Shown here piece after piece: positions 34,606 to 38,930 of a stretch of DNA of 64,000 bases. Numbering within the stretch: the stretch's first letter is position 1; the number at the start of each line of letters is the position of its first letter. The DNA is from Shinella pollutisoli (GTDB taxonomy: Bacteria > Pseudomonadota > Alphaproteobacteria > Rhizobiales > Rhizobiaceae), in NCBI RefSeq assembly GCF_024609765.1, contig NZ_JANFDG010000003.1:62001-126000 (forward strand), given 5' to 3'. The position numbers and the translations under genes were made by a program. The notes under the pieces are model-generated. The model saw only the letters and a list, made by a program, of their open reading frames with translations. It did no database searches and had not been told where the DNA came from.

Positions 34606-35427
34606 TCAGTTGCCGTCGATCTCCGCGCCGATGATGGCGATCGCGCGCTGGTAGACGCTCGCCGCGTTCCAGCCCTGCAGGGCGCCGAAATTGGCCTGGC
34701 CCGGCTGGTAGCCGGCACCGGGGGTCCAGCCGTGACCGCGCAGGAAGTTCGCGGTCGAGGCGAGCGCGTCGGCCTTGGAGCCGACGAGGTCGATGCGGCC
34801 GTTGCCGTCGCCGTCGACGCCGTATTTCAGGACGTTCGCCGGTAGGAACTGCGTCTGGCCGATCTCGCCGTGCGCCGCGCCGCGCGCCGACGGGCTGAGG
34901 ATGCCCTTCTGCACGAGCTGCAGGGCGGCATAGAGCTGGTTGGTGAAATATTCCGGGCGCCGGCAGTCATAGGCGAGCGTGGCGACGGCCGAGAGCGTGT
35001 GCTCCTTGCCGAGGAAGCCGCCGAAGCCGGTTTCCATGCCCCAGATCGCCAGCAGCGGGCCGGCTGGCACGCCGTAGCGGCTCTCGATGCGGTTGAAGAG
35101 CGCGGCGTTCTGCTGCTTCAGGCTCTTGCCGCGGCGGATGATGGTCGCGCCGCCGCGCTTCTGCATGAACTGCTCGAGGGAGAGCTTGAAGCTCTTCTGG
35201 CCGCGGTCGGCGCGGATCGTCGCCTTGGCGTAGCCGACATTGGCGAAGGCCTTGTTCAGGGTGCCCTTGTCGATGCCGCGTGCGGACGCCTCCTGCTTGA
35301 AGGCCTCGACCCAGGCGGGGAAGCCGCCGGCGTCGTTGCCGCACCTGGCGGCGTAGGCGGTGGCCGGCAAGGCCGCCGTCGTGATCATTGCGGCCAGCAG
35401 CCCGGCCGCCTTTGCTGTCATGCCCAT
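34606..35427 (-). CDS. Lytic murein transglycosylase (MltB-like, SLT_2)
   Basis: 273 residues. It cleaves peptidoglycan between MurNAc and GlcNAc with 1,6-anhydro product formation. A signal peptide (about residues 1-27, ending ATAYA) directs export; there is no lipobox, so it is probably soluble periplasmic. The catalytic glutamate is Glu132 in AIWGMETGFGGF. HGEIGQTQFLPANVLKYGVD and GHGWTPG are family blocks. The start at 35427 gives a clean signal peptide; a longer frame to 35523 does not. Confidence 0.9.
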   Translation of the reverse strand: MGMTAKAAGLLAAMITTAALPATAYAARCGNDAGGFPAWVEAFKQEASARGIDKGTLNKAFANVGYAKATIRADRGQKSFKLSLEQFMQKRGGATIIRRGKSLKQQNAALFNRIESRYGVPAGPLLAIWGMETGFGGFLGKEHTLSAVATLAYDCRRPEYFTNQLYAALQLVQKGILSPSARGAAHGEIGQTQFLPANVLKYGVDGDGNGRIDLVGSKADALASTANFLRGHGWTPGAGYQPGQANFGALQGWNAASVYQRAIAIIGAEIDGN

Positions 35428-35571
35428 GAAAAACCCCGTGATCCGTCTATCCTGCCGCGGAACATGCCATGTCCCGCAAAACCTGTCACCGCAACTTGCC
35501 GAGAGCGAGCCCGTCAGCTCCATTGACGGCGCCGACGGGAGATTTATTGCAAATTATTTACCAAAAGCTGA

Positions 35572-36606
35572 TCAGGCCGCCTGCTTCTTGGCCTTGATGA
35601 GGCCGCGGTCGACGAGAAGCTCGGCGATCTGCACGGCATTCAGCGCCGCGCCCTTGCGCAGGTTGTCGGAGACGACCCACATGTTGAGGCCGTTCTCGAC
35701 GGTGGCGTCCTCGCGGATGCGCGAGATGTAGGTGGCGTCCTCGCCGGCCGATTCGTACGGCGTGATGTAGCCGCCGTTCTCCTGCTTGTCGATCACCTGG
35801 CAGCCCGGAGCCTCGCGCAGGATCTCGCGCGCCTCCTCGGCGGTAATCTCGTTTTCGAACTCGATGTTGACCGATTCGGAATGGCCGATGAAGACCGGCA
35901 CGCGCACGGCCGTGCAGGTGACCTTGATCTTCGGGTCGAGCATCTTCTTGGTCTCGGCCACGACCTTCCACTCCTCCTTCGTGTAGCCGTCCTCCATGAA
36001 GACGTCGATGTGCGGGATGACGTTGAAGGCGATGCGCTTGGTGAACTTCTTCGATTCGATCGGGTCGGCGACGAAGACGGCGCGGGTCTGGTTGAAGAGC
36101 TCGTCCATGCCGTCCTTGCCGGCGCCGGAGACCGACTGGTAGGTCGAGACGACGACGCGCTTGATCGTGGCGCGGTCATGCAGCGGCTTCAGCGCGACGA
36201 CGAGCTGGGCGGTCGAGCAATTCGGGTTGGCGATGATGTTCTTGCGGGTGAAGCCGGAAATGGCGTCCGGGTTCACTTCCGGCACGATCAGCGGCACCTC
36301 GGCGTCGTAGCGCCAGGCCGACGAATTGTCGATGACGACGCAGCCCTGCGCGCCGATCTTCGGCGAATACTTCTGCGAAACGGAGCCGCCGGCCGACATC
36401 AGGCAGATGTCGGTGTCGGAGAAGTCGTAGGTTTCCAGGTTATGGACCTTCAGCGTCTTGTCGCCGAAGGAGACCTCGGTGCCGACGGAGCGGCTCGACG
36501 CCAGCGCCACGACCTCGTCCGCCGGGAAGCCGCGCTCCGACAGGATGTTCAGCATCTCGCGGCCGACATTGCCGGTCGCGCCGGCGATTGCGATCTTGAA
36601 ACCCAT
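35572..36606 (-). CDS. asd: Aspartate-semialdehyde dehydrogenase
   Basis: 344 residues. It reduces beta-aspartyl phosphate to aspartate semialdehyde, the branch point for lysine/diaminopimelate, threonine and methionine. The NADP-binding start MGFKIAIAGATGNVGREML and the catalytic Cys130 in NPNCST are clear. The start ATG at 36606 is preceded by a GAGAG ribosome-site-like stretch. Upstream lies a promoter, a threonine/lysine-rich leader ORF and alternative stem-loops (see 36650-36888), so expression is probably controlled by attenuation. No gene follows closely on the same strand. Confidence 0.96.
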   Translation of the reverse strand: MGFKIAIAGATGNVGREMLNILSERGFPADEVVALASSRSVGTEVSFGDKTLKVHNLETYDFSDTDICLMSAGGSVSQKYSPKIGAQGCVVIDNSSAWRYDAEVPLIVPEVNPDAISGFTRKNIIANPNCSTAQLVVALKPLHDRATIKRVVVSTYQSVSGAGKDGMDELFNQTRAVFVADPIESKKFTKRIAFNVIPHIDVFMEDGYTKEEWKVVAETKKMLDPKIKVTCTAVRVPVFIGHSESVNIEFENEITAEEAREILREAPGCQVIDKQENGGYITPYESAGEDATYISRIREDATVENGLNMWVVSDNLRKGAALNAVQIAELLVDRGLIKAKKQAA

Positions 36607-36649
36607 TGCAAGCTCTCTTTCTCTGTCTCTCCGCGGGTCCAGGAGGGGA

Positions 36650-36674
36650 AACCCGCCGGCCTTCGACGCGGGTT
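36650..36674 (-). terminator. Attenuator-like hairpin in the asd leader
   Basis: Arms AACCCGC/GCGGGTT (36668-36674 and 36650-36656) enclose an 11-base loop; on the minus strand the stem is followed by TTT then CCCC, so it is weak as an intrinsic terminator. Its upstream arm and loop can instead pair with a segment inside the leader ORF (36775-36799), making the two folds mutually exclusive. Confidence 0.5.
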
Positions 36675-36718
36675 CCGGTCCCCGGCCTTGCCGGGGAGAG
36701 AGCGGCGGGCCAGAGACG

Positions 36719-36838
36719 TCAGACGGTTTTCGTCGTCGTTTTGGCCGTTGTCTTGGAAAACGATGCGCAAGGGCGAACCCGCCCGGCGTCGAAGGCCGGG
36801 ACGTTGATGCGGGCGATGGCAGGACCAGGGCGGTGCAT
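36719..36838 (-). CDS. Putative Thr/Lys-rich leader peptide of asd (attenuation)
   Basis: A 39-codon ORF, too short for routine gene calling. AAAGGA stands 6 bp before the ATG. The N-terminal part reads MHRPGPAIARINVPAFDAGR; the end reads SKTTAKTTTKTV then TGA. That end has six threonine and three lysine codons in its last eleven, both end products of the pathway asd feeds. A sigma-70-like promoter lies just upstream and competing stem-loops lie downstream, the plan of thr-type attenuators. Regulation by threonine and/or lysine is inferred. It could be a chance ORF, but promoter, ribosome site, codon content and location agree. Confidence 0.6.
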   Translation of the reverse strand: MHRPGPAIARINVPAFDAGRVRPCASFSKTTAKTTTKTV

Positions 36839-36860
36839 GGCGGTTCCTTTGCGTGGCTGC

Positions 36861-36888
36861 TCAATACGCCGATCGCGTCAGGAGTCAA
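36861..36888 (-). promoter_or_regulatory. Putative sigma-70 promoter of the asd leader
   Basis: On the minus strand TTGACT (36883-36888), a 16-bp spacer and TATTGA (36861-36866). The -35 overlaps the 3' end of the PAP2 gene. Transcription would start near 36854, giving the leader ORF a very short 5' UTR. Confidence 0.6.
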
Positions 36889-37570
36889 GACCCAGGCGCT
36901 TCGGTTGCGGCCATCCGGCGGCATCGAAGCGGAAGAGCCATTGCCGGCCGGCAAAGAGGAAGGCGGCGGCGATCGCCGTCCAGAGGCCGAGCAGGAGGCC
37001 GGCGGCGACGTCGCTCGGATAGTGCGCGCCGACGACGACGCGTGACACGCCGATCGTCAGCGCGCCGGCGAGGAAGAGCGGCCTCAGCCCCGGCACCAGC
37101 ATCGAGAAGGCGCCGAAGAAGGCGCCGACCGCCGCCGAATGGCCGGACGGGAAGCTCTGGAACAGCGTGTCGAAGGAAAGCGGCGTCAGGTCGTAGGCGC
37201 CGCGCTCGGAGAGAAGCGCCGGGCGCGCCCGGCCGACGACGAGCTTGGCGAGATGGACGAGCGCGCTCGTCGCACCGATGGTGAGGAAGAAATAGAGGGA
37301 GAGGCGCAGCCCCGTGCGCGCCCTGCCCGCGACCGTCGCGCTGCGGCTCGCGCGCCCGAGCACATAGGCGACGATGACGAGCAGGCCGGAGCCGTAGATC
37401 ATCCAGCGGAAGGTGCCGAAATCGGTGATCGCATGGTTGAAGAGAACGATCCGTTCCGGAAGCGCCTGGGCACGCTGCGACAGCGCCGGATCGAAGGGAA
37501 CGAGTGCCACGACGAGGACGACGGTGGCGGCGAGCAGCCAGAGCGAGGACGTTGCGAGCGGACGGTACAT
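36878..37570 (-). CDS. PAP2-family membrane phosphatase
   Basis: 230 residues, with about six hydrophobic segments. The three PAP2 active-site motifs are all visible: KLVVGRARP (109-117), PSGHS (141-145) and SRVVVGAHYPSD (176-187). Such enzymes dephosphorylate lipid phosphates, for example undecaprenyl pyrophosphate or phosphatidylglycerol phosphate, or lipid A; the substrate cannot be decided here. It lies upstream of the asd leader on the same strand, but a promoter at its 3' end suggests separate units. Confidence 0.88.
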   Translation of the reverse strand: MYRPLATSSLWLLAATVVLVVALVPFDPALSQRAQALPERIVLFNHAITDFGTFRWMIYGSGLLVIVAYVLGRASRSATVAGRARTGLRLSLYFFLTIGATSALVHLAKLVVGRARPALLSERGAYDLTPLSFDTLFQSFPSGHSAAVGAFFGAFSMLVPGLRPLFLAGALTIGVSRVVVGAHYPSDVAAGLLLGLWTAIAAAFLFAGRQWLFRFDAAGWPQPKRLGLDS

Positions 37571-37647: not shown

Positions 37648-37788
37648 GCCCCTCACCCTAACCCTCTCCCCGCAAGCGGGGAGAGGGGACCTGCCTCATG
37701 AGACGATGATGGTTCGGGAAAACGATACGGCATGTCTCCTTCTCCCCGTTTACGGGGAGAAGGTGGCCGGCAGACGGGATGAGGGGCT
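37648..37788. repeat. REP/BIME-like intergenic repeat cluster 2
   Basis: Two hairpins, CCTCTCCCCGCAAGCGGGGAGAGG near 37661-37686 and CCTTCTCCCCGTTTACGGGGAGAAGG near 37738-37763, with outer arms CCCCTCACC and GGATGAGGGGC. It is related to the cluster at 27745-27864. It separates the PAP2 gene promoter side from the leuB 3' end. Confidence 0.8.
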
Positions 37789-37817
37789 TGGGCCCTGCCC
37801 TCCCGACGCCGGAAGCC

Positions 37818-38930
37818 TCAGGCGTAGTGCTTCCTGAACGCCGTAAGGATCGCGTCGCCCATCTCGGCGGTGCCGACCTGGCGGCAGCCCTCGGCCATGA
37901 TGTCGCCGGTGCGGATACCGCTGTCGAGCACCTCGGCGATCGCCTGCTCCAGCCTGTCGGCGTCCTCGACGAGGTTGAACGAGTAGCGCAGGCACATGGC
38001 GAAGGAGGCGATCATGGCGATCGGGTTGGCGATGCCCTTGCCGGCGATGTCGGGCGCCGAGCCGTGCACGGGCTCGTAGAGCGCCTTGCGCTTGCCGGTC
38101 TTCGGGTCGGGGGCGCCGAGCGAGGCGGACGGCAGCATGCCGAGCGAGCCGGTAAGCATGGCGGCGACGTCGGAGAGCATGTCGCCGAACAGGTTGTCGG
38201 TGACGATCACGTCGAACTGCTTCGGCGCCCGCACCAGCTGCATGCCGCCGGCGTCGGCGAGCATGTGGTCGAGCTGGACGTCGGAGTAGCTGCGCTTGTG
38301 CGTCTCGGTCACGACCTGGTTCCAGAGCACGCCGGACTTCATGACGTTGCGCTTCTCCATCGAGCAGACGCGGTTCCTGCGGGTGCGCGCGAGCTCGAAG
38401 GCGACGCCGGCGATGCGCTCGATCTCGTAGGTGTCGTAGACCTGCGTGTCGATGCCGCGCTTCTGGCCGTTGCCGAGGTCGATGATCTCCTTCGGCTCGC
38501 CGAAATAGACGCCGCCCGTGAGCTCCCGCACGATCAGGATGTCGAGGCCCTCGACCAGCTCCGGCTTCAGCGAGGAGGCGCTGGCGAGCGCCGGGTAGCA
38601 GATCGCCGGGCGCAGGTTGGCGAAGAGCTTCAGGTCCTTGCGCAGGCGCAGGAGGCCCGCCTCCGGGCGCACCTCGTAGGGCACCGCGTCCCATTTCGGG
38701 CCGCCGACGGCGCCGAACAGCACGGCGTCGGCGGCAAGCGCCTTCTCCATGTCGCCTTCGGAGATCGCCGCCCCATGGGCGTCGTAGGCGCAGCCGCCGA
38801 CGAGGCCCTCGTCGGTCGTGAAGCCGGCGCCGCGCTCGGCGTTCATGTAGGCGATGATCTTGCGGACTTCCGCCATGGCTTCCGGGCCGATGCCGTCGCC
38901 GGGCAGGAGGAGAAGGGTGCGGGTCGTCAT
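37818..38930 (-). CDS. leuB: 3-isopropylmalate dehydrogenase
   Basis: 370 residues. It oxidises and decarboxylates 3-isopropylmalate in leucine synthesis. The N-terminus [20 protein letters not shown] is typical; substrate-binding [10 protein letters not shown] and the metal site [27 protein letters not shown] follow, with [15 protein letters not shown] near the end. The ATG at 38930 gives the usual length. leuD lies 529 bp upstream on the same strand with a RidA gene between. Confidence 0.96.

Follow-up and report, generated by a model that had tools for sequence, protein, structure and literature searches.

The stretch of DNA analysed here (64,000 nucleotides, referred to as the window) carries on its minus strand the gene asd, whose product, aspartate-semialdehyde dehydrogenase, stands where the pathways leading to threonine, methionine and lysine begin, the lysine route also supplying the cell-wall precursor diaminopimelate. 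In the window, a lytic transglycosylase gene is the downstream neighbour of asd. On the 5' side of the leader in front of asd is a phosphatase-like frame, which stops just beyond the -35 box. The leader and the gene comprise the following features:

36888-36861, minus strand: predicted promoter TTGACT-N16-TATTGA (TTGACT 36888-36883, TATTGA 36866-36861), from sequence and comparison
36850-36845, minus strand: AAAGGA, putative ribosome-binding site of the leader frame, from sequence, with a similar element seen by eye in congeners
36838-36719, minus strand: leader frame of 39 codons with a Thr/Lys-rich end, ATG at 36838, UGA (TGA) stop at 36721-36719
36717-36708, minus strand: segment A, GUCUCUGGCC, predicted to pair with C in a ten-pair helix (local fold and partner-swap test)
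36701-36695, minus strand: segment B, UCUCUCC, at stop+17, predicted to pair with D or locally with C' (partner-swap test)
36687-36678, minus strand: segment C, GGCCGGGGAC, including C' (CCGGGGA, 36685-36679) (local fold and partner-swap test)
36674-36650, minus strand: hairpin H4, AACCCGC..GCGGGTT (36674-36668 with 36656-36650), from family alignments
36632-36626, minus strand: segment D, GGAGAGA, predicted to pair with B, at ATG-26 and just upstream of the asd Shine-Dalgarno site
36618-36613, minus strand: AGAGAG, likely Shine-Dalgarno site of asd, from position and sequence only
36606-35572, minus strand: asd, aspartate-semialdehyde dehydrogenase (NCBIfam TIGR01296 asd_B, 471.8 bits against a cut-off of 324.2, E 1.1e-141)

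The leader frame translates to MHRPGPAIARINVPAFDAGRVRPCASFSKTTAKTTTKTV and its stop lies 112 nt before asd. The final eleven codons read K T T A K T T T K T V, so that the six Thr and three Lys counted there by an earlier note on this DNA were verified from the translation, and the TTGACT-N16-TATTGA promoter, the AAAGGA and the 39-codon frame that it had described are all present on the minus strand. A hairpin within the frame (36800-36782, minus strand, CCCGGC..GCCGGG) seems by eye to recur with altered stems across the family (L021-L068) and perhaps paces the ribosome. The reading of the leader as a dispersed repeat was dropped, as it is single copy across its 79-contig genome, with remaining matches that are short and a next best E of 0.06. 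A second leader 5' of hom was dropped as well, since hom lies ~50 nt behind an aminotransferase-like frame, and the frames of at least 25 aa listed there include no separate Thr/Lys one. Elsewhere in the window, at ~37650-37840, opposite-strand translations like PLTLTLSPQAGRG and PLSPLAGRGLG suggest an interspersed palindromic repeat between genes.

As to the putative promoter, TTGAC[ACT] is present somewhere 5' of the end of the leader in 140 of 144 leaders and in 14 of 144 mononucleotide shuffles, and TTGACT..TA[AT]NN[AG] is matched by 72 of the 113 genus and family leaders, with a spacer of 16 nt in 71 of these 72. Counting against the promoter, a looser two-box pattern is satisfied in 86/144 leaders, and a generic sigma-70 scan of 35300-37400 reported no promoter. 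In L147, a TTGACA box stands so near the frame that the transcript may begin at or near the AUG. At the other end of the leader, a second family type features a clearer ACAGGAG near the same place as the putative asd Shine-Dalgarno site.

Conservation of the frame was followed through genomes in which asd could be located, namely 21/21 sampled from the genus (Shinella), 197/199 from the family, 146/150 from the order and 129/142 from the class. Upstream DNA was examined at 21 genus, 107 other family, 60 order (57 script-readable) and 20 class loci (18 readable), and each was scored by the number of Thr plus Lys in the last 12 residues of the best frame, with a threshold of 6. A score of at least 6 was reached by 21/21 genus, 93/107 other family and 34/57 readable other order loci (148/185 in total). 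The maximum on the 185 strands of the antisense control was 4, so that none reached the threshold (0/185), and ~0.1% of 3700 first-order Markov sequences reached 6. A chance or compositional frame was dropped, because antisense strands and Markov sequences fail to match this conservation, and the presence of a Thr/Lys frame upstream of asd far beyond chance is confirmed. The earlier note had been ready to give up its reading if no conserved frame with Thr/Lys codons appeared in relatives, and such an absence is clearly contradicted by the 148/185 loci.

Below the threshold fell 23/57 order loci and 14/107 family loci. Several of these family loci showed by eye very short frames of the same character from an internal ATG (MITRSPIKTII, MSARSLIKTTT, MSALTFTKTTIII). 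Four family loci, L078, L091, L131 and L143, hold no Thr/Lys frame by score (-1 to 1), and the leader may have been lost or replaced there; GA-rich sequence before asd is retained in L078 and L143. Short leaders, with the stop just 77-82 nt before asd, occur in L075, L077, L103, L104, L109, L120, L136, L144 and L147, and some short-leader frames have ~10 codons, such as MRTTIKTKTTI in L077. Outside the order, a Thr/Lys frame precedes asd in 2/18 readable loci (L332 and L338); these frames end in PTTTKKTKTVA and TITTPTTKTKTGITV, respectively, and L338 carries by eye a B:D-like pair, TCTCTTC/GGAAGAGA. An exact 39-base core was retrieved from at least 119 stretches of named records, with asd behind it in 116/119, the other three being ended early by the locus end before any recognised asd. 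The 80 titles listed for the core include Rhizobium, Sinorhizobium, Ensifer, Neorhizobium, Pseudorhizobium, Ciceribacter and Shinella.

The last 12 residues of the 148 passing leaders hold 826 Thr and 405 Lys among 1774, and, as these leaders were chosen by their T+K sum, only the split between Thr and Lys and its shift are informative. The penultimate residue is Thr in 131/148, the antepenultimate Lys in 103/148 and Thr also fills the fifth position from the end in 128/148. Within the last 15 residues, the Thr mean is 5.6 in the genus, 5.8 in the family and 6.5 in the order, and the Lys mean is 3.0, 3.1 and 2.2, respectively; 8/34 order leaders have one Lys only, and none has zero. Ile and Met average 0.4 to 0.9 and 0.2 to 0.3 of these residues. 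Judged by codon content, Thr is the constant signal and Lys the usual second signal. Lys is mostly encoded by AAA (346 AAA vs 59 AAG, counted over the final 12 codons of the 148 leaders, L021-L208), a preference that may bear on stalling or help to keep structure out of the frame.

The frame also bears marks of translation. In 21/21 genus genomes, a start codon is found 39 codons ahead of the stop (ATG in 20, GTG in 1). Gap runs are divisible by three in 168/168 cases within the last 15 codons, vs 119/1028 after the stop; this count comes from three family alignments (46, 41 and 9 leaders, 96 in total) whose rows are related, and is to be taken as support, not as a probability. Variable columns over the frame in the genus showed no third-position excess (12, 12 and 13 by codon position), nor did those of codons 1-27 (10, 11 and 12 of 27); the first part thus yields no coding signal, as would be expected if the peptide end alone matters. 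In S. meliloti, a small frame named SEP5 was reported in the 5'UTR of an 'aspartate dehydrogenase' gene (PMC10117765, Microlife 2023); towards its end it carries six Thr codons and three Lys codons, its translation was shown by Ribo-seq and Western blot, and it is called 'possibly a leader peptide'. From codon content and place, SEP5 is likely the S. meliloti counterpart of the asd leader.

Behind the frame, inspection by eye and local folding gave a common layout from the stop to asd, consisting of pyrimidine-rich A directly behind the stop, pyrimidine-rich B ~16-22 nt after it, purine-rich C/C', hairpin H4 in the longer family leaders, and purine-rich D immediately 5' of the Shine-Dalgarno site. 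In the window, B:D emerged unprompted as inverted repeat I3. Because base composition could otherwise mislead pairing tests, partner swapping was used, in which the best helix between two windows of one species is compared with that obtained when the windows are swapped among species. The mixed set combined 31 order loci with 12 family loci chosen by hand, 43 leaders in all, and 15 window pairs were compared in it. Only A:C (z -4.7) and B:D (z -4.8) had 0/5000 permutations matching the native pairing in this set, followed by frame:A (z -2.5, 36/5000) and A:B (z -2.3, 55/5000), with B:C and C:D both at -1.4. The 31 order loci alone gave z -3.4 for B:D (2/5000) and -2.0 for A:C (125/5000), and another window set from the order gave -5.1 (0/2000) and -2.8 (11/2000), respectively. 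In the family (92 leaders), where z-values are inflated by shared ancestry, A:C reached -6.6 and B:D -7.0, and A:C, B:D, B:E, frame:A and A:B all stood at 0/5000. The covarying helices behind the frame are A:C and B:D. Changes on both sides of B:D between lineages include CCCTCTCC/GGAGAGGG, CCCTCACC/GGTGAGGG, CGCTCCCC/GGGGAGCG, CTCTTCCGCC/GGCGGGAGAG and TTTCTCTCCCTTCGGGG/CCTTGAAGGGAGAGAGG.

The B:E signal is gone in the order and mixed sets and is probably a clade effect. The helix A:E, with A on the asd Shine-Dalgarno site, was dropped on order z-values of +1.3 and -0.2, despite a family z of -3.3, and A showed no covariation with the Shine-Dalgarno region in the mixed set (A:D z +1.1, A:E z -0.3). 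Pairing of frame with A had z -2.5 in the mixed set, -4.7 in the family and -1.3 in the order, and covariation of B:C was weak throughout (-1.4 mixed, -1.5 order, -3.2 family). For frame:E, the counterpart of the pairing between codon run and Shine-Dalgarno box in the actinobacterial LEU element, values of 0.0 (mixed), -0.9 (order) and +2.3 (family) were obtained from a swap test that is blind to invariant pairing. As A:C and B:D cross, they would make a pseudoknot if both form together, and B:C' overlaps both of them.

Leaving A out of the window from A to C worsened the fold by more than 1 kcal/mol in 107/124 leaders. In 117/124, a helix formed by the first 20 nt past the stop reached beyond nt 28, its median start lying 2 nt behind the stop. 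Other folding results count against the proposed RNA switch: local folds had a mean z of -0.96 in the family and -1.38 in the order, vs -0.7 in the frame body, the whole-leader fold was no better than shuffles (z -0.65), an RNAduplex test was weak (mean z -0.49, 12/161 below -1.5), and so was a single-sequence helix test (p<=0.05 in 9/127). L140, L165, L167 and L178 were left out of the partner-swap, T-run/gap and local-fold/variable-column counts for their stop-to-asd distance. Column counts were made on one family alignment of 35 of the 41 leaders of that type (L076, L080, L100, L106, L111 and L141 left out). In this alignment, 88.9% of cells were paired, a share reached by 2/500 shuffles and compared with 38.9-65.1% in slid versions, and seven pairs changed on both sides (7/500), a count that is non-discriminating as slid versions gave 6-11. 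The covariation score of B:C' alone in the family alignment was not distinguished (58/500). The hairpin that the earlier note had placed before asd is present as H4 (AACCCGC/GCGGGTT), with 87.6% of cells paired in the 35 leaders and both-side changes in 2/6 pairs, but it is one among several helices.

This locus has a short frame with its own start between putative promoter and gene, with conserved codons for amino acids that the asd pathway makes; behind the frame, A:C and B:D covary and the weakly covarying B:C' overlaps both. A translated Thr/Lys-rich leader regulating asd is supported as the best reading. It is quite probable, judging from sequence comparison, that the element is a ribosome-mediated attenuator of asd conserved across much of the order. 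The ribosome on the frame would be slowed by a shortage of charged tRNA-Thr (and tRNA-Lys), and its position would decide whether A:C forms. With A:C formed, B would be exposed in its loop and could pair with D beside the asd Shine-Dalgarno site, and with A:C unformed, B would be held in B:C' and D left free. The most likely output is initiation of asd translation, with starvation raising Asd; it is placed there because only a few nt separate the end of B:D from the Shine-Dalgarno site and most leaders are without a T-run.

The switching folds are plausible, and two wirings of them come into question. Preferred, though at slightly under even chances, is the one in which B:D is the OFF state, formed once ribosomes clear the leader, and a ribosome at the last control codons disfavours A:C; B:D is preferred as OFF because it is the best-supported pairing and is placed where it should hinder the 30S subunit. 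In the other wiring, which is possible but rather doubtful, A:C and B:D together would be ON, and the OFF fold would consist of B:C' with A on the Shine-Dalgarno region. A terminating ribosome would cover A, and one stalled several codons earlier would leave A free; this geometry, together with frame:A pairing, leans to the second wiring, and the absence of covariation of A with the Shine-Dalgarno region in the mixed set counts against it. In each of four groups (127 leaders in total), masking the first 18-22 nt past the stop lowered the computed cost of opening the asd start site, an effect that a shorter RNA alone has likewise. Against the preferred wiring, masking only up to the stop in the nested folding model, which is where a stalled ribosome would be, barely changed the cost and raised it in two groups. 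As a whole, an order-wide translational attenuator reading Thr and Lys in one frame via crossing A:C and B:D, a pseudoknotted partner-exchange switch instead of a nested antiterminator/terminator, is proposed as a tentative model.

The earlier note had proposed that the leader senses Thr and/or Lys and sets asd transcription. Conservation and the retention of both codon types uphold a Thr/Lys leader regulating asd, and it is transcription as the output that fares poorly. The rival is termination, either classical thrL-type attenuation at an intrinsic terminator or a Rho-dependent event within the C-rich leader. In its favour, 33/144 leaders have at least five T in some 8-nt window, 16 of them with the run directly behind H4 (for example GCGGGTTTTCTCC in L107, L108 and L113, and GGGTTTTTTCC in L117). 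In the other 111/144 leaders, however, no 8 nt between the stop and asd contain more than four T, H4 is missing by eye from short leaders and many order leaders, and no T-run follows the covarying B:D in the sequences examined, this helix adjoining the asd Shine-Dalgarno site. Since the GC-rich hairpin and U-run of an intrinsic terminator are absent before the gene in most leaders, termination is an unlikely general mechanism; within one family group, some leaders could use H4 as a weak terminator.

Two further explanations shift the function away from the ribosome on the frame. The peptide might act in trans, or the leader RNA be released as an sRNA, as reported for S. meliloti peTrpL/rnTrpL, and the detection of SEP5 as a tagged protein (PMC10117765) fits this; against it, codons 1-27 vary about equally at all three positions in the genus, and some leaders have just ~10 codons with the Thr/Lys/Ile end alone kept, which leaves such a function very improbable, though conceivable as an added role. 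That the core is strongly conserved at the nucleotide level within the family could also reflect a riboswitch or protein-binding element with an incidental frame. This is still harder to credit, as Thr/Lys codons persist despite changed nucleotides in other families and gaps within the frame keep phase; moreover, Rfam covariance models gave none at the gathering score in the window and no family at E <= 1 in seven diverse loci.

Thr-rich leader peptides upstream of aspartate-family genes are familiar from thrL of enterobacteria, where Thr codons go with Ile codons and with an intrinsic terminator, whereas the asd leader combines Thr with Lys codons, precedes asd and is mostly without a T-run. 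If the model is true, a single Thr plus Lys leader would explain branch-point balance in a large group of plant-associated and other bacteria. The crossing helices offer a concrete, mutable model, and the leader frame is an annotation candidate in many genomes of the order. The asd leader peptide is partly known already via SEP5, which in the portion of PMC10117765 available is printed as 'conserved only in Sinorhizobium' and comes with no RNA mechanism; in contrast to this, the frame described here is family-wide, frequent in the order and accompanied by covarying helices, and the printed restriction of the peptide to Sinorhizobium would be revised accordingly. The literature searched, in which subscription papers were mostly outside coverage and long result lists were sampled, gave no account of wider conservation or an RNA switch. 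Among the matches listed, only PMC10117765 bears on the asd leader, and the main text of an S. meliloti sRNA survey (PMC2873474) contains no 'asd'. S. meliloti trpL/rnTrpL, from the same bacterial group, is a leader-peptide attenuator too, but it differs in reading Trp, in attenuating transcription and in its leaderless frame. The nearest printed analogue in the literature searched is the LEU element of actinobacterial leuA (Seliverstov et al. 2005, PMC1262725), for which no sequence kinship is claimed; it has Leu codons, not Thr/Lys, and its codon run itself pairs with the Shine-Dalgarno box.
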